The translations under genes were made by a program, and so were the position numbers. The notes under the pieces were generated by a model that searched no databases, was not told where the DNA came from, and saw only the letters and a list, made by a program, of their open reading frames with translations. DNA of 34,104 nt from Microgenomates group bacterium GW2011_GWF2_46_18 (GTDB lineage Bacteria; Patescibacteriota; Microgenomatia; UBA1400; UBA12108): assembly GCA_001002415.1 (NCBI GenBank), contig LCMB01000011.1, positions 1 to 34,104 of the forward strand, read 5' to 3'. The first letter of the stretch is position 1; the number at the start of each line of letters is the position of its first letter. Below, in pieces: positions 1,508 through 15,955 of this stretch.

Positions 1508-2395
1508 TTGAGTGAACTTGACGAATTTGTTAGAAAATATAAACATCAAATTGATCGGGGGATTAAAGAGGAACTAGAGAAGAGGTTGGCGGAGGTTAAG
1601 GATATTTCACCTCAACTGGTTTCGGTAGTATTAGCGATGAGCGAACTTGCGGCCGGGGGGAAGCGGATGCGAGGACTATTAACGATATTGGGATATGAGT
1701 TAGCGGGAGGGAAAGACGAAAAAGAGATCGTGAAAGCGGCAGTGGTTATGGAACTATTTCATTTGGGACTGTTAATTCAAGATGATGTCATGGATCGGGA
1801 TGAACTGCGGCGGGGAGTCAAAACCATTCACGTACGCTATCCTGACTTGCATCTAGGCGAAGCGGTAGCGAATTGTGTGGGAGATCTGACGTTTGGATGG
1901 GGGATGGAAATAATCTCAAAACTTAATATTCAAAGTTCAAAAGTGGTAGCGGCCATGAGCGTATGGGGGAAGTATTTTGCGCGAGTAGGGTATGGGCAGA
2001 TCCTGGATGTGATGAAGGTGGCGGATCAAACTACTCTTTTGAATATTTTGGCGCTTAAAAGCGGAGAGTATAGTTGTGTCTTGCCGCTCCTAATGGGCGC
2101 AACCTTGGGGGGAGCTCAGGCAGAGTTACTGGATAAGTTAACTAGGTATGGGATGGAACTGGGGTGGGTGTTCCAGCTAAGAGACGATTGGCTGGCCGAC
2201 TTTGGTGAGAGCCAAAAAACTGGTAAACCAGTGGGGAACGATAGACGGGAAGGGAAAAAGACCTTGGCAACAATGTACGGGAGAGAAAAATTAGAGGAGG
2301 AGATTGTGTGGCACACGAAGCGAGCGAGAGTGGAAGCGGGGGAGGAAAAGATGTTGCTAGCGTTGGTTGAGTGGGCGGGGACGAGAGAAAATTGA
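1508..2395 (+). CDS. Polyprenyl synthetase family protein (isoprenyl diphosphate synthase)
   Basis: Likely TTG start at 1508 just after the cupin stop; DDVMD and DDWLAD aspartate-rich motifs, GGKRMRG and GNDRREGKKTL. Confidence 0.9.
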   Translation: MSELDEFVRKYKHQIDRGIKEELEKRLAEVKDISPQLVSVVLAMSELAAGGKRMRGLLTILGYELAGGKDEKEIVKAAVVMELFHLGLLIQDDVMDRDELRRGVKTIHVRYPDLHLGEAVANCVGDLTFGWGMEIISKLNIQSSKVVAAMSVWGKYFARVGYGQILDVMKVADQTTLLNILALKSGEYSCVLPLLMGATLGGAQAELLDKLTRYGMELGWVFQLRDDWLADFGESQKTGKPVGNDRREGKKTLATMYGREKLEEEIVWHTKRARVEAGEEKMLLALVEWAGTREN

Positions 2396-2464
2396 TATAT
2401 ATTGATATATTGACTAGAGGAGAATAATTCGCAAGAATATCGAGTTATTAGGAGGTAAATCAAA

Positions 2465-2638
2465 ATGTGTAATATATTTTCAGAACAAGATCCAGCTAGG
2501 ATACCGGTAGATATCACCATGCCTGCTCCAATACCAGAGAGTGATGACATTGTAATGACTCCAAAAGAGCTAGAAGAGGCAGGGGAAGCTGCTAGAGCTT
2601 GGGTAGCACAAGTGGGAGTAACTAGTGGGATTGTGTAA
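2465..2638 (+). CDS. Small hypothetical protein, 57 aa (MCNIFSEQDPARIPVDITMPAPIPESDD...)
   Basis: ATG with strong Shine-Dalgarno (taggaggtaaatcaaaATG); open frame to TAA at 2638; not in the supplied ORF list. Confidence 0.55.
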   Translation: MCNIFSEQDPARIPVDITMPAPIPESDDIVMTPKELEEAGEAARAWVAQVGVTSGIV

Positions 2639-2647
2639 GATTGAGTT

Positions 2648-3280
2648 ATGTTTCGATCGGTAGGGAAAGAGAGTTATCCAGAAGCTTTGCGGCAGATTGC
2701 GTGGGTACCAACTAGACTGTATTACGAAGGTGAGATTGCGCTATTAGCTAATCCCAGAATAATTGCGGTGGTGGGAACTAGAAGGATGAGCGAGTACGGG
2801 GAATTGGTTACCAGAAAATTGGTACGAGAATTAGTGGCAAGAGATTGGGTGATTGTGAGTGGACTTGCTCGAGGAGTAGATAGAGTGGCTCACGAGACCT
2901 GTTTGGCTAATGGCGGGAAGACGATCGCAGTTTTGGCTCATGGGCTGCAGATGACATACCCACCGGAACATGCAGATTTACGCCAAAGAATTGTGGATAG
3001 CGGTGGGTTGATTATGTCTGAACACAAAGAAGGGATTGGATTAACCAAACAAAACTTGGCAGTGCGAAATCGAATTGTCGTGGCGATTGCTCAGTGTGTC
3101 TTGGTCACCGAGTCGCCAAAATCGTCGGGGACAAAAATTACCGTGAGGTTTGCGGCTGATCAAGGGAAGGATGTTTATGTAGTTCCGGGACCGATCAACG
3201 ATCCAACGTATGAGGGGAGCGTTGAGTTGATGAGAGATGGATGTATACCAATAGGAAAGGCTGAGGACATAGAATTTTGA
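2648..3280 (+). CDS. dprA: DNA-processing protein DprA/Smf
   Basis: GTRRMSEYG, VSGLARGVDRVAHETCL, VVPGPINDPTYEGS: DprA Rossmann-fold motifs. Confidence 0.92.
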   Translation: MFRSVGKESYPEALRQIAWVPTRLYYEGEIALLANPRIIAVVGTRRMSEYGELVTRKLVRELVARDWVIVSGLARGVDRVAHETCLANGGKTIAVLAHGLQMTYPPEHADLRQRIVDSGGLIMSEHKEGIGLTKQNLAVRNRIVVAIAQCVLVTESPKSSGTKITVRFAADQGKDVYVVPGPINDPTYEGSVELMRDGCIPIGKAEDIEF

Positions 3281-3300
3281 GTCTCTGCTATCATATCTAT

Positions 3301-3837
3301 ATGAAAGTTATCGCAGGACTAGGGAATCCGGGGGAGAAATACAGCAGGAATCGACATAATGTTGGGTTTATGGTGATGGATAGGTTACAACAGTTAACGG
3401 ATAATGGACAGTGGACCAAGAGTAACAAATTTGAGGCAGAGATAGTCCAAACAGAAAACTATTTGTTAGTAAAGCCGCAGACTTTTATGAATAAAAGTGG
3501 ACTTTCTATTGCAAAAATTTGTCACTTTTACAAAGTGAAGTATGAAGATTTATATGTGATCCATGATGATTTGGATATTACTTTGGGTAATTACAAAATT
3601 CAATTTGGGAAGGGGCCGCAGATTCATAACGGCTTGTTGTCGATTGAAGAATCGTTGGGGACAGATCAATTTTGGAACGTTAGGGTGGGAGTGGAGAATA
3701 GACCAGTGAGAGGGAATAGGGGTGTGCCAGGGGTTGTTTATAGCTTGCAAAACTTTGAGGGAACAGAGGTAAGTATGATCACAAAGGTGATCCAGCAAAT
3801 AGTGAATGATTTGATTATGGGAATCGTTGCACGTTGA
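3301..3837 (+). CDS. pth: Peptidyl-tRNA hydrolase
   Basis: MKVIAGLGNPGEKYSRNRHNVGFMVMD, KPQTFMNKSG, HDDLDI, HNGLLSI. Confidence 0.93.
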   Translation: MKVIAGLGNPGEKYSRNRHNVGFMVMDRLQQLTDNGQWTKSNKFEAEIVQTENYLLVKPQTFMNKSGLSIAKICHFYKVKYEDLYVIHDDLDITLGNYKIQFGKGPQIHNGLLSIEESLGTDQFWNVRVGVENRPVRGNRGVPGVVYSLQNFEGTEVSMITKVIQQIVNDLIMGIVAR

Positions 3838-3872
3838 CACCGTGAGTATATTGCGAGTATTTTGGTACAAGT

Positions 3873-5846
3873 ATGGATTTAGTTATTGTTGAATCACCGA
3901 CCAAGGCTAGGACCCTAGCCAAGTATTTGGGAAACGATTACAAAATCGAAGCTTCCATGGGGCATGTCAGAGATTTGCCGGAGAAAGGTGGGGGATTAGC
4001 GATTGATATCGAACATGATTTTGCACCGCAGTATACCGTGCTAGTTAGTAAGAAGGCGCGGGTAGCAGAGCTAAAGAAAATTGCCAAGACAGCAAAGGTA
4101 GTGTACTTGGCAACTGACCCTGACCGAGAGGGAGAGGCCATTGCTTATCATGTCCAGTACTTACTGGCTGAGAAAGCTAAAGGGGGGCAGGAGCGGTTCA
4201 AGAGGGTAACTTTTCATGAAATTACCAAGACGGCCATATTGGGGGCACTGGAACATCCGGGAGTTGTGAATATGCCGATGGTGCATGCCCAACAGGCAAG
4301 GCGAGTACTTGACCGGTTGGTGGGATATACCTTGTCCCCTTTGTTGTGGAAGAAAGTCCGACGGGGACTATCGGCGGGGAGAGTGCAATCGGTGGCAGTC
4401 CGGTTAATCGTGGATAAAGAGCGAGAGATCACGGCATTTGTGCCGGAAGAATATTGGCAGATATTTGTGGACCTAAAGACGGAAAAAGAGAAGAAAGATT
4501 TGCGGGTGGAGCTAATCAAAATTGAGGATAAACCAGTAAAAATTGCGAAGGGTGAAACGGCTAAGGAGATAGTAGGGGAGTTAACAAAAGCGAGTTATAC
4601 CGTTTCGGATGTGACCAAGGAAGAGCAACATAGTTCTCCTTATCCGCCACTTACCACTTCGTTACTAGCCCGAGCGGGAAGTAACGTATTTGGGTGGAGT
4701 GCCAAGATGACGATGCAGATTGCCCAAGCGCTTTACGAACGTGGATACATTACCTATCACCGGACCGACTCGTTTAATTTGGCCACCGAAGCCATCACGA
4801 TGGCCAGAGGATATATTGAGCAAAGTTTTGGGAAAGCGTACTTGCCCGCCGAAGCGAGAGTGTATAAAACGAAGGCGGCCAGTGCGCAGGAAGCTCACGA
4901 GGCTATTCGGCCAACTAGGGTAGAGCGGGTGGGATCTGAGTTGACAGCCGAAGGGATCACTTCCCGGCATCAAAAATTATATGAATTGATCCGCTCACGA
5001 TTTTTGCAGTGCCAAATGAGTGATGCCAGATTTGATAAAACATCTATTTTTGTTACTGCCGGAAAATATGGATTGAAAGCTGACGGGAAGAGAATGATTT
5101 TTGATGGATACTTAAAATTGGGTAAGAGTGCAGAGGATGTGTTTGTGCCAGAAGTTGCGGCAGGAGAAGTACTTACCTTAATCAAAGTAGAGCCAGTGCA
5201 GAAATTTACCCAACCGCCAGCTAGATACACTGAGGCCGGACTGATTAAGGAATTGGAAAAGCGGGGAATTGGCAGACCGAGTACTTATGCCGCGATCATT
5301 TCAACAATTCAGGACAGGGGATATGTGATTAAGGAGGAAAAAAAGTTCAATCCGACAGCGATTGGGGAAGCTGTCGTTGATTTTTTGGTGAAAAATTTTG
5401 CTGATGTGATGGCTTATGAGTTTACGGCGAAGATGGAGAATAATTTGGACAGAATTGCGGAAGGGGAAGAGAAATGGGTTCCAGTTGTTAGAGAGTTTTG
5501 GGAGAGTTTGAGTAAACGAGTGGAGAAAGCTGAGGAGACGGGAGCCAGGGTTAAGGTGAAAGTGGAAAGCACGGGGAAGAAATGCCCGGAATGTGGAGAA
5601 GGAGAGGTGGTAGTTCGGACTGGTAGGTATGGGAAATTTTTATCATGCAGTCTTTACCCAGAGTGTAAATATACTCAACAGTATGTGGAATACGTGGCGG
5701 GTTATAGTTGCCCAATGGACGGGGGGAGAGTTAAGGCCATGAAGAGCAAGAAGGGGGCAAAGTTTTTTGGTTGCGAGAATTTCCCTAAATGTAAATGGGC
5801 AACGTGGAAATTGCCGGAGAAGAAAGATGTCAATAATGAAAAGTAA
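3873..5846 (+). CDS. topA: DNA topoisomerase I
   Basis: IVESPTKARTLAKYLG, TDPDREGEAIAYH, active-site YITYHRTDS, C-terminal CPECG zinc-finger repeats. Confidence 0.96.
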   Translation: MDLVIVESPTKARTLAKYLGNDYKIEASMGHVRDLPEKGGGLAIDIEHDFAPQYTVLVSKKARVAELKKIAKTAKVVYLATDPDREGEAIAYHVQYLLAEKAKGGQERFKRVTFHEITKTAILGALEHPGVVNMPMVHAQQARRVLDRLVGYTLSPLLWKKVRRGLSAGRVQSVAVRLIVDKEREITAFVPEEYWQIFVDLKTEKEKKDLRVELIKIEDKPVKIAKGETAKEIVGELTKASYTVSDVTKEEQHSSPYPPLTTSLLARAGSNVFGWSAKMTMQIAQALYERGYITYHRTDSFNLATEAITMARGYIEQSFGKAYLPAEARVYKTKAASAQEAHEAIRPTRVERVGSELTAEGITSRHQKLYELIRSRFLQCQMSDARFDKTSIFVTAGKYGLKADGKRMIFDGYLKLGKSAEDVFVPEVAAGEVLTLIKVEPVQKFTQPPARYTEAGLIKELEKRGIGRPSTYAAIISTIQDRGYVIKEEKKFNPTAIGEAVVDFLVKNFADVMAYEFTAKMENNLDRIAEGEEKWVPVVREFWESLSKRVEKAEETGARVKVKVESTGKKCPECGEGEVVVRTGRYGKFLSCSLYPECKYTQQYVEYVAGYSCPMDGGRVKAMKSKKGAKFFGCENFPKCKWATWKLPEKKDVNNEK

Positions 5847-13404: not shown

Positions 13405-14118
13405 ATGAAATATTGGGAGACGTGGAAGAGACGCCGGGAGAAGAAGTACCGGGTGCTATATAAGCGGGGGCCATCGACTCTAGCCTTGATTTTTGCGGGG
13501 ATGGCGCTAACTCTCTGGGGGATCTTTGCCCTCTTATCGAGTTATCCGGTGGGGTTATATCTGTATTACACGGTTGTGCCCAGGACTTCGGAACTACTAG
13601 GGAAGGCACTCACCGAAACTAGTCAGAAAATGGTGGCGGTTGCTTCGCCTAGACCGGTAGTTGCGGAGCCGCCAGTTGTACCCGTCTTTACCCGCGATAT
13701 TACGCTCCCGGAGGGGCATTACCTGATGATTCCCAAGATTGGAGTGGATACGGTGATTTGGGAGGGGGAAGGGGATAACTATGAGAAAGCGCTCAAGAAG
13801 GGCGTGTGGAGAGTGATGGAGTTTGGAAAGCCAGATTCAGTGGAAGAGGGGAGGCCGATTATCTTGGCGGCCCATCGGTTTGGGTATATAGAGTGGACGC
13901 AGGACTACCGCGAACAAAATGCCTTCTATAATCTGCCAAAACTAGAAGAGGGTGACCAGGTAGCAATTGTGTGGAATCAGCACCGATATATGTATAGAGT
14001 AACCCAGGTTACAGAGGCGACGGAGATTGCCGATTACTCGAGCGAGTTGATTATGTATACCTGCAAGTTCATGATTTCACCGATTCGCATCATAGTTTAT
14101 GCTGATTTAGTTGAATAG
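13405..14118 (+). CDS. Sortase, membrane-anchored
   Basis: N-terminal TM segment; IPKIGVDTVIWEG, IILAAHRFG (catalytic His), IMYTCKFMISPIRIIVYADLV (Cys/Arg). Confidence 0.88.
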   Translation: MKYWETWKRRREKKYRVLYKRGPSTLALIFAGMALTLWGIFALLSSYPVGLYLYYTVVPRTSELLGKALTETSQKMVAVASPRPVVAEPPVVPVFTRDITLPEGHYLMIPKIGVDTVIWEGEGDNYEKALKKGVWRVMEFGKPDSVEEGRPIILAAHRFGYIEWTQDYREQNAFYNLPKLEEGDQVAIVWNQHRYMYRVTQVTEATEIADYSSELIMYTCKFMISPIRIIVYADLVE

Positions 14119-14129
14119 TCCTATAGGGG

Positions 14130-14157
14130 TTGACAAATCGATCTGGCCGTGTATAAT
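14130..14157 (+). promoter_or_regulatory. Sigma70-like promoter TTGACA-N16-TATAAT
   Basis: Consensus hexamers at 14130-14135 and 14152-14157, 7 nt before the ATG at 14165. Confidence 0.8.
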
Positions 14158-14164
14158 GCGGCAC

Positions 14165-14428
14165 ATGAAAAGACTTATAGCGTTGGTTACCCTGTTATTC
14201 GCTTTGGCCACCCCAGTGGCGGCTGAGACTGTCCGCACCTGTTCCAGTGTTTACGGTGGAGGCGAGGTTTGCGGTGAAGCGACTACAAACGTCACGATTG
14301 AGCATAAAGTGGTCGAAACCGGAATCAGTAATGAACAGATTTTCAAAATGTTAGCTAGTGTTGCCGGAGCAGCTTTGCTGGCCACAGTGCTTTACAAATT
14401 AACTTACAAATCCTACATCCTCGGATAA
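14165..14428 (+). CDS. Small secreted/membrane protein (signal peptide, Cys pair, C-terminal TM)
   Basis: MKRLIALVTLLFALATPVAAETVRTCSSVYGGGEVCGEA...MLASVAGAALLATVLYKLTYKSYILG. Confidence 0.7.
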   Translation: MKRLIALVTLLFALATPVAAETVRTCSSVYGGGEVCGEATTNVTIEHKVVETGISNEQIFKMLASVAGAALLATVLYKLTYKSYILG

Positions 14429-14451
14429 ACTTTTTTCCAGCGTTTTTTGGC

Positions 14452-14739
14452 TTTGCCCTGAGCCACCCAAATAAGAGAAACTTAGGGCAAAACCACTAAG
14501 CAATTAGTCGTACCTTAAAAATTAATAGCTATAGGATATGACCCTAGGAATGGGGACTGCGACAAGGGCAGGTTCGCAGTCTCCATTCTTGAGGTTAACT
14601 CCTCAAGTACTGGTAAAGCCGGTGACTCACAGAGCGTGAAGATATCGGTGGCGCTAGTAGCTCTTTAACAAGGCGTGTAGAACTCTAGGGAGCAATCCCA
14701 GGAGTAGATACTTTGTCATGCGAAAGCATGACAATCGCT
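14452..14739 (+). ncRNA. Candidate large structured RNA: at least 7 helices, 3 GNRA tetraloops, 1 pseudoknot; family not recognised
   Basis: Stems read directly: 14452-62/14481-91; 14495-99/14504-08 (GCAA loop); 14549-61/14575-87; 14588-94/14601-07; 14608-13/14654-59; 14619-23/14644-48; 14682-91/14696-705 (GCAA loop); 14713-21/14726-34 (GAAA loop); pseudoknot 14631-35 with 14660-64. Confidence 0.65.
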
Positions 14740-14802
14740 AAATAAGTTGTATATAAATGGGAACGAACAGGAGCTTCTTTTTGAAAATTGAGTAACCTTT
14801 GG

Positions 14803-14857
14803 TCTGGTGTACTTTGCTTGTAAATAATCACAAAAATTATTGGCAAGGTACACCAGA
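14803..14857 (+). promoter_or_regulatory. Long stem-loop in the leader of the 14896 gene
   Basis: TCTGGTGTACTTTGC (14803-17) pairs with GCAAGGTACACCAGA (14843-57), one GU; inner AATAAT/ATTATT; no U-tract follows. Confidence 0.6.
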
Positions 14858-14895: not shown

Positions 14896-15201
14896 ATGGA
14901 ACAAAATGTTACGAGTTGGTTGTTAGACCCAGCCTCATGGTTGGCGCCAGGTCCGGTTGCTCAGTTCATTGGGATTTTGTTGGTAGGCTTCGCCTTCCTG
15001 CAGTCTCTTCCCAATGATTGGGCTGGTGGCAAGCTCTTTTCCCGTAAAGCCGCGTGGCTCACCTACATATTGACCGCCGTCTATGTGATGGTTGTCTTTG
15101 TAGCGCCATTTGTTGGCTACGGTGTTGTGCTTGCCCTTGTCGTGATTTTCACCCTGCTCATCGTCGCATTCCGTGTGCGCGAGAGTTGGAAGACTCAGTA
15201 A
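14896..15201 (+). CDS. Small multi-pass membrane protein, unknown
   Basis: SD aaaggagaaagtaagATG; about 3 hydrophobic segments (VAQFIGILLVGFAFL; AWLTYILTAVYVMVVFVAPFVGYGVVLALVVIFTLLIVAF). Confidence 0.7.
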   Translation: MEQNVTSWLLDPASWLAPGPVAQFIGILLVGFAFLQSLPNDWAGGKLFSRKAAWLTYILTAVYVMVVFVAPFVGYGVVLALVVIFTLLIVAFRVRESWKTQ

Positions 15202-15220: not shown

Positions 15221-15718
15221 ATGAAAAAGATCTTGATCCCCCTGTTCGTGATTGTTGCCCTGTTGTCGGCATGCCTCCCCAACCCCGGCTCACCTTCTGT
15301 GCCGACTGCACAGCCGCTGAATGCTCCCGTTGATTTGGGAACAGCAGATTGTCGCAATCATGGTGTCACTTCTTGGCAGAATGACAACCAAGTCTCCGGT
15401 GCAAGCTATGGAGAAGCTCCAGTTGGCGGTCTCGATGAGACATGCTGGGTGGTAGCACAAACTTGGTGGGTTGACTCCAATGGCACTTCCCATCGGGCAG
15501 TGTTTGCGGTTCGTCCCCACACGGTCGCGTGGCTTTCGGGTCACAAAGGTGGTACAGGTTGGTATTTTGGCGGCAGCATAGCTGACGTTAAAGCCAATTT
15601 GGCTGATCAATCCCGACAACTGTTGGAACGCGATGGTGAGATGGACACTTTGACAATCATCCTTCCGGATGACGCTGCGAAGTTTCCTATCCTCACCCGC
15701 TTTTCACAGAAGCAGTAA
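15221..15718 (+). CDS. Predicted lipoprotein, unknown function
   Basis: SD ttttaggagattcccATG; MKKILIPLFVIVALLSAC lipobox (LSAC). Confidence 0.75.
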   Translation: MKKILIPLFVIVALLSACLPNPGSPSVPTAQPLNAPVDLGTADCRNHGVTSWQNDNQVSGASYGEAPVGGLDETCWVVAQTWWVDSNGTSHRAVFAVRPHTVAWLSGHKGGTGWYFGGSIADVKANLADQSRQLLERDGEMDTLTIILPDDAAKFPILTRFSQKQ

Positions 15719-15737
15719 CCGGTCTAGCAAACCGAAG

Positions 15738-15835
15738 AAAACTGGAGTGACCAAACTCAGCCACCCACATGCAGTCGCTCACGCGAACTTGCATAACCTG
15801 TCGACATTTGTCGCACATGGGCTGCCTCCAGTTTT
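15738..15835 (+). other. Nested inverted repeat / structured 3' region
   Basis: AAAACTGGAG (15738-47)/CTCCAGTTTT (15826-35), 10 bp perfect; nested CAGCC (15758-62)/GGCTG (15820-24). Confidence 0.55.
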
Positions 15836-15955
15836 TATTTACAACTTAGGTTTTACGACCACTAGCGAGAATGTATCGTATCTTTCCTTAATCGGAAACT
15901 ATACCTACACGCCTCGCTTCTTGAGTACATAATAATTTGTGTGCTCAAAGGCGAT

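Follow-up and report, generated by a model that had tools for sequence, protein, structure and literature searches.

A folded RNA with an rRNA-type boxA, probably the leader of an rRNA-operon-like unit of protein genes in Microgenomates

The window, the whole stretch of 34,104 nucleotides analyzed here, is one complete contig (C11) of a 674 kb Microgenomates genome in 24 contigs. This genome is referred to as G000, and G002, G003, G004, and G005 are other genomes of the same family. Near the middle of the window, a sortase gene is followed by a small secreted protein, a non-coding gap, and two further genes.

13405-14118: sortase gene (Pfam Sortase)
14130..14157, + strand: candidate strong promoter TTGACA-16-TATAAT of the small-protein/RNA transcript, read in the sequence
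14165..14428, + strand: gene of a small secreted membrane protein, 87 aa, with a C-x3-YGGGxVCG motif, adjoining the sortase
14896..15201, + strand: downstream gene 1, a 101-aa membrane protein with ribosome-binding site AAAGGAG
15221..15718, + strand: downstream gene 2, a lipoprotein with a weak lipobox match

The small secreted protein (14165..14428) matched no Pfam family, and about 21 full-length orthologs were found among 384 sampled genomes of the class. The type itself, a small secreted C-x(n)-YGGGxVCG protein next to a sortase in Microgenomates, lacks a Pfam family. G002 and G004 likewise have a TTGACA..TATAAT-type motif 5' of their small-gene ortholog. Genes for an FkbM methyltransferase, a family 2 glycosyltransferase, and a 994-aa membrane protein lie 3' of the lipoprotein gene. 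In a codon-bias test against ribosomal genes, the three genes of the unit showed the highest use of C-ending codons in the window, which is at most suggestive of high expression.

The first-pass annotation described the gap as a densely structured RNA, capped by three GNRA tetraloops and tied by a pseudoknot, in front of a membrane protein/lipoprotein pair. That pair is present (14896..15201 and 15221..15718), and all of the listed helices were located where they had been placed. The local features of the RNA are as follows.

14452-14462/14481-14491, + strand: helix 1, 11 bp, TTTGCCCTGAG/CTTAGGGCAAA, nearly invariant in sequence in six genomes
14495-14508: helix 2, ACTAA/TTAGT, as first described
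14510..14545, + strand: degenerate boxA-like stretch ACCTTAAAAATTAATAGC, then a conserved TATAGG..CC hairpin (six-genome alignment)
14549-14561/14575-14587, + strand: hairpin 3, 13-bp stem with invariant loop GGGCAGGU, compensatory changes in five genomes
14588..14607, + strand: hairpin 4, CTTGAGG/CCTCAAG, kept in the Roizmanbacteria record L052
14608-14613/14654-14659, + strand: helix 5, TACTGG/CTAGTA, kept in L052
14608..14659, + strand: helices 5-7, TACTGG/CTAGTA, CCGGT/ATCGG, and TCAC/GTGA, kept in L052
about 14682-14706 and about 14714-14735: GNRA-capped hairpins, present in the window sequence
14803..14857, + strand: long hairpin 5' of the ribosome-binding site

A stretch of 481 nt folds at -168.2 kcal/mol against -117.4 kcal/mol for shuffled sequences (z = -9.02), with none of 100 dinucleotide shuffles reaching the native energy, which bears out the earlier claim of a structured RNA. 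When 240-nt windows were slid along the 34-kb contig, those starting at 14521 and 14401 ranked first and third of 283. Most of the region from 14.4 to 15.96 kb is unusually structured, including the trailer of the lipoprotein gene. That trailer, 15720-15950, is a second highly structured intergenic stretch (z -6.0), in which CTCAGCCACCCACAT recurs, a near match to CTGAGCCACCCAAAT in helix 1 (14458). An initial reading of the long hairpin at 14803-14857 as a relic of rRNA processing was dropped, the true leader and trailer arms being found further out.

Homologs of the RNA are known in five genomes besides that of the window. A DNA search in the window's family found it following the small-gene ortholog in G002, G003, G004, and G005, and a motif scan of genome contigs recovered a full-length copy in L052, the only new one among known family members and chance matches. 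The exact-motif scan of viral contigs gave no matches. The alignment of the window with L052 spans helix 1 and hairpins 3 to 7, continues for 15 nt, and then ends; 99% of its cells are paired under the structure versus 35-50% when the alignment is slid. Helices 1, 3, 4, 5, 6, and 7 are preserved, with one compensatory change (A-U to G-C) in helices 5-7. The GNRA tetraloops, although present in the window, are not conserved, as hairpin 2 and both 3' GNRA hairpins are missing from L052. The pseudoknot AGAGC/GCTCT fares similarly: the complementarity exists in the window, but in L052 AUAGC stands against GCUCU, so that one of five pairs is broken without compensation, the sole loss of a pair in the two-sequence alignment.

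The compensatory changes are concentrated in hairpin 3, where 11 of 14 pairs show them in five genomes while the closing A-U and the loop stay constant; L052 lies one register off the window, which inflates some of the counts, and 11 positions stay by hand count when it is omitted. The arms of the hairpin pair at 12.8 of 14 positions with their own partner and at 7.9 when taken from different genomes. For the window and L052 alone, a pairwise covariation count did not exceed shuffles, and the covariation support of the RNA comes from hairpin 3 in five genomes and from the arms described below. A covariance model built from one family (R1) recovered no homologs in the window's family and few elsewhere, because the element diverges too fast. 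Rfam searches at gathering and permissive thresholds returned no riboswitch, ribozyme, or large ncRNA family, with only microRNA-type chance matches, in agreement with the first-pass view that the RNA lies outside known families. The gap thus holds a real, conserved structured RNA.

The last conserved stretch of this RNA, AGCTCTTTAACAAGG, contains a sequence of a different kind. The leaders of rRNA operons carry boxA, the loading site of NusB/S10, and the genome's own 16S rRNA has TTGTTCTTTAACAAC about 93 nt upstream. The boxA of the RNA matches that of the organism's rRNA. The GCTCT at 14660-14664, previously read as a pseudoknot partner, belongs to this conserved element. The features of the outer unit are as follows.

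14659..14670, + strand: boxA AGCTCTTTAACA, candidate NusB/S10 binding site (rRNA-leader matrix)
14671..14680, + strand: leader arm AGGCGTGTAG, immediately 3' of boxA, -18.7 kcal/mol with the trailer
14743..14757, + strand: inner leader arm, complementary at 14 of 15 positions to 15834-15848
15834..15848, + strand: inner trailer arm, pairs with 14743-14757
15905..15914, + strand: trailer arm CTACACGCCT behind the downstream genes, pairs with 14671-14680

A matrix was compiled from the rRNA boxA of 13 genomes, with 12-mers selected by eye from the leaders, and run in leave-one-out fashion on the intergenic regions of the element. Its top site was the conserved box in 14 of 14 genomes (the window and 13 relatives), with p 0.007 in the window leader and p <= 0.023 in 12 of the 13 relatives; the match in G208 was weak (p 0.17), and in G002 the last leader unit was taken alone. 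With a matrix of rRNA boxA plus the element's own sites, six intergenic sites in 650 kb score this high, namely this RNA, the 16S and 23S leaders, tmRNA, and two long mRNA leaders. The YTCTTTAACA sites in the genome number six and include the 16S leader, this RNA, and tmRNA, with two others in ORFs of more than 200 codons; the occurrences inside ORFs are presumably due to chance. The perfect boxA sequence within tmRNA, 28 nt from its 5' end (G000:C5:35228, L076), is probably also a chance match. Of the two long mRNA leaders among the six intergenic sites, both headed by boxA, one precedes a gene for a Cys-rich small secreted protein (G000:C2:4800, L197:4800); in the other, an ATG with its ribosome-binding site follows boxA at a distance of about 200 nt (G000:C4:38074, L226:18074). 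The stretch ACCTTAAAAATTAATAGC within 14510..14545 is possibly a second, degenerate boxA.

In rRNA precursors the sequence behind boxA pairs with the trailer, and the genome's own 16S, taken as a control, shows a 21-bp leader-trailer stem after its boxA. The same arrangement recurs at the element, where the arm behind boxA pairs with a trailer that directly follows the secreted-protein gene or pair of genes. Duplex energies computed over the whole length carried no information, and limiting the comparison to the arm behind boxA was decisive. The helix has p <= 0.022 in 9 of 13 loci and 0.032 in a tenth, values that are not independent across loci because the loci are related. The arm sequences differ between lineages: the window has 10 perfect base pairs, G145 13 (ATCGAGGCAAAAA/TTTTTGCCTCGAT), G429 14, G366 12 (AATAGGCAACTT/AAGTTGCCTATT), G371 15 (AAAGATATACACTTT/AAAGTGTATGTCTTT), and G208 13 (CGAAACATACAGA/TCTGTATGTTTCG), while L052 forms an interrupted helix of -21.5 kcal/mol (GGCATACGG/CCGTATGCC). 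The single-locus tests are weak (p 0.12-0.15) for G002 when ungapped, where a bulged 12- to 13-bp helix reaches -20.1 kcal/mol, and for G110 and G130, which have in common the short ATCGAGGC/GCCTCGAT (p ~0.12). In a blind search over up to 6 kb, the best helix lay between -18 and +187 nt from the gene stop at 8 of 14 loci. In the window, the inner 15-nt pair 14743-14757/15834-15848 nests within the outer helix. The arms enclose no rRNA, as the window has no Rfam match to one and the 16S and 23S genes are on another contig.

These results bear on the idea that the element is a free-standing ncRNA derived by processing of the small-protein mRNA at its 3' end, with the likeness to boxA and the trailer helix being incidental. 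Helix 1 and hairpin 3 do follow the small gene in G002, even with a convergent next gene. This reading is nevertheless very improbable, given that the rRNA matrix puts its best site at boxA in all 14 loci and that the trailer helix recurs with changed sequences. The free-standing ncRNA kinds named in the first-pass annotation give way to a probable rRNA-type leader, of a unit that reaches as far as the trailer at 15905-15914.

The unit extends beyond the window's family. Many of the genomes with an ortholog have the same order: the small protein, a folded RNA with boxA-like GCACYTTAAMAAATCGAGGC, a strong ribosome-binding site, and a secreted protein or lipoprotein. The order continues with a membrane protein of about 1000 aa and, in several cases, Rho, an assignment confirmed by the RNA-binding domain in G145 only. 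In G145, G302, G130, G319, and G208 (another family), the apparent Rho gene comes immediately after that of the ~1000-aa membrane protein or a short way further on. The downstream proteins vary between lineages, two of the secreted proteins/lipoproteins being collagen-like. Some genomes with the small protein lack the leader, which counts against the reading as an rRNA-type leader unit: G313 and G290 have no more than a short one, and G404 and G001 have no boxA-like site.

In G002 (G002:C17, L061 reverse complement 2290-4230), three antisense gene modules separate hairpin 3 from the last boxA. They comprise HicA with its partner, an ORF fragment, and a pair of HepT and nucleotidyltransferase genes. 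Two of the three have their own boxA in front and are flanked by GTAGGATRTCAC/GTGATATCCTATAG inverted repeats. The G003 locus also carries an antisense insert. Such modules suit antitermination because the sense transcript is untranslated there. The G002 inserts are also compatible with a rival reading as mobile cassettes, in which boxA and the arms would be the edges of integron- or transposon-like units carrying toxin-antitoxin or surface genes, and the helix a DNA inverted repeat at a recombination hot spot. The repeat-bounded modules with their boxA sequences, together with the G003 insert, speak for this reading, but hairpin and arm sequences co-vary, gene order is orthologous across families, the boxA matches the genomes' rRNA boxA, and no recombinase was seen near the locus. 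A recombination hot spot is judged improbable.

In four leaders of another Microgenomates family (L101, L117, L125, and L099), the region 3' of boxA contains three strands that allow two exclusive pairings, ACGGTGAG/CTCACCGT/GGTGAG. The same leaders carry a perfect palindrome, TTCTCTGGCCAGAGAA, which is altered to TTCTTCGGCCGAAGAA in L125. The exclusive pairings look like a switch. A further alternative is that the RNA is mainly a cis-regulatory leader, either riboswitch-like or a protein-binding attenuator, with the hairpin 3 loop GGGCAGGU as the sensor and upstream folding switching access to boxA. The invariant loop on a covarying stem, the helices immediately 5' of boxA, and the mutually exclusive palindromic pairings seen by eye in L101, L117, and L125 are compatible with such a role. 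Against it stand the lack of an Rfam match, the loss in L052 of the pseudoknot that would form the switch, the variation of the downstream proteins between lineages, and the retention of hairpin 3 in G002 and G003, where intervening antisense genes divide the RNA into portions that are also set apart from the surface genes. A mainly regulatory leader is unlikely. The riboswitch or ribozyme framing of the first-pass annotation found nothing to support either kind; the conserved features are the invariant-loop hairpin, boxA, and the arm that pairs with the trailer.

The reading best suited to the sequence evidence, and one that we consider probable, is that the region is the 5' leader of an rRNA-operon-like unit containing protein genes, with Nus antitermination, looping, and perhaps RNase III processing. 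The required genes are present: NusB and Rho are encoded in six of six family genomes, and the window's genome encodes RNase III (signature, Pfam-confirmed), with NusB on the same contig as RNase III. Transcription from a strong promoter where the sortase gene ends would cover the gene of the small secreted protein and then some 460 nt of folded RNA that is not translated. On emergence of boxA (14659-14670), NusB/S10 with NusA/NusG would load onto RNA polymerase, the long untranslated leader would escape Rho, and the polymerase would run on processively into the membrane-protein/lipoprotein pair and the glycosyltransferase genes that follow, permitting high expression. We propose that arm 14671-14680 is held ready because boxA is tethered to the polymerase. 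Once both genes are transcribed, the arm would pair with trailer arm 15905-15914, looping out the two genes in the fashion of pre-16S rRNA, and RNase III may cut the helix to release a discrete mRNA.

A broader proposal, about which we are tentative and slightly more doubtful than convinced, is that Microgenomates exported the architecture of rRNA production (boxA antitermination with leader-trailer looping and processing) to a modular secreted/membrane-protein unit, in which varied cargo such as lipoprotein genes, collagen-like proteins, and antisense toxin-antitoxin modules lies in the loop of a boxA-headed helix. If true, the module for rRNA transcription and processing would be movable to mRNA, and the unit would be a natural system in which antitermination through boxA could be told apart from ribosome assembly. 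The setting is a group of tiny, mostly uncultured bacteria (Microgenomates, Candidate Phyla Radiation) whose surface biology is barely known.

Several known systems resemble parts of the unit. The EAR RNA of Bacillus eps operons and LoaP-type antitermination use an inter-cistron RNA in a surface-polysaccharide-type operon to promote polymerase processivity; by analogy, the window RNA lies between cistrons of a surface-type operon and would make the polymerase processive, but it has no Rfam match to EAR and carries boxA. The lambda nut sites combine boxA with hairpins, and helix 1 holds a similar GCCCTGA..AGGGC stem; in the window, however, the hairpin is upstream of boxA, no phage genes were recognized in the adjoining sequence, and we know of no N protein for this system. 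To our knowledge, the pairing of boxA with a leader-trailer helix is considered specific to rRNA, and none of the literature searched, which covered open-licence papers only, described both together around protein genes. Known boxA sites outside rRNA include the suhB leader, repressed through boxA by a translation block, and a ParE-like toxin gene in Citrobacter koseri, and such sites were described without report of a leader-trailer helix (PMC5725501). The window shares with these genes a boxA in an mRNA leader outside rRNA operons and differs from suhB in that its leader is long, structured, and joined to a trailer helix, with boxA ~225 nt 5' of the start codon. In Escherichia coli, the leader-trailer helix of pre-16S rRNA begins with boxC, the arm that follows boxA and overlaps the RNase III site; the antitermination complex is believed to keep this arm at the polymerase until the trailer has emerged (PMC10250234). 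The cargo of the window is protein-coding, its hairpins are much larger, its arm directly follows boxA rather than about 18 nt on, and its sequence is unrelated to the rrn leader outside boxA. It nevertheless shares with the boxB-boxA-boxC leader of rrn operons a boxA followed by an arm that pairs with a trailer behind the cargo (PMC10250234), together with structured hairpins before boxA, the presence of Nus and RNase III genes, and the order found at the organism's own 16S.
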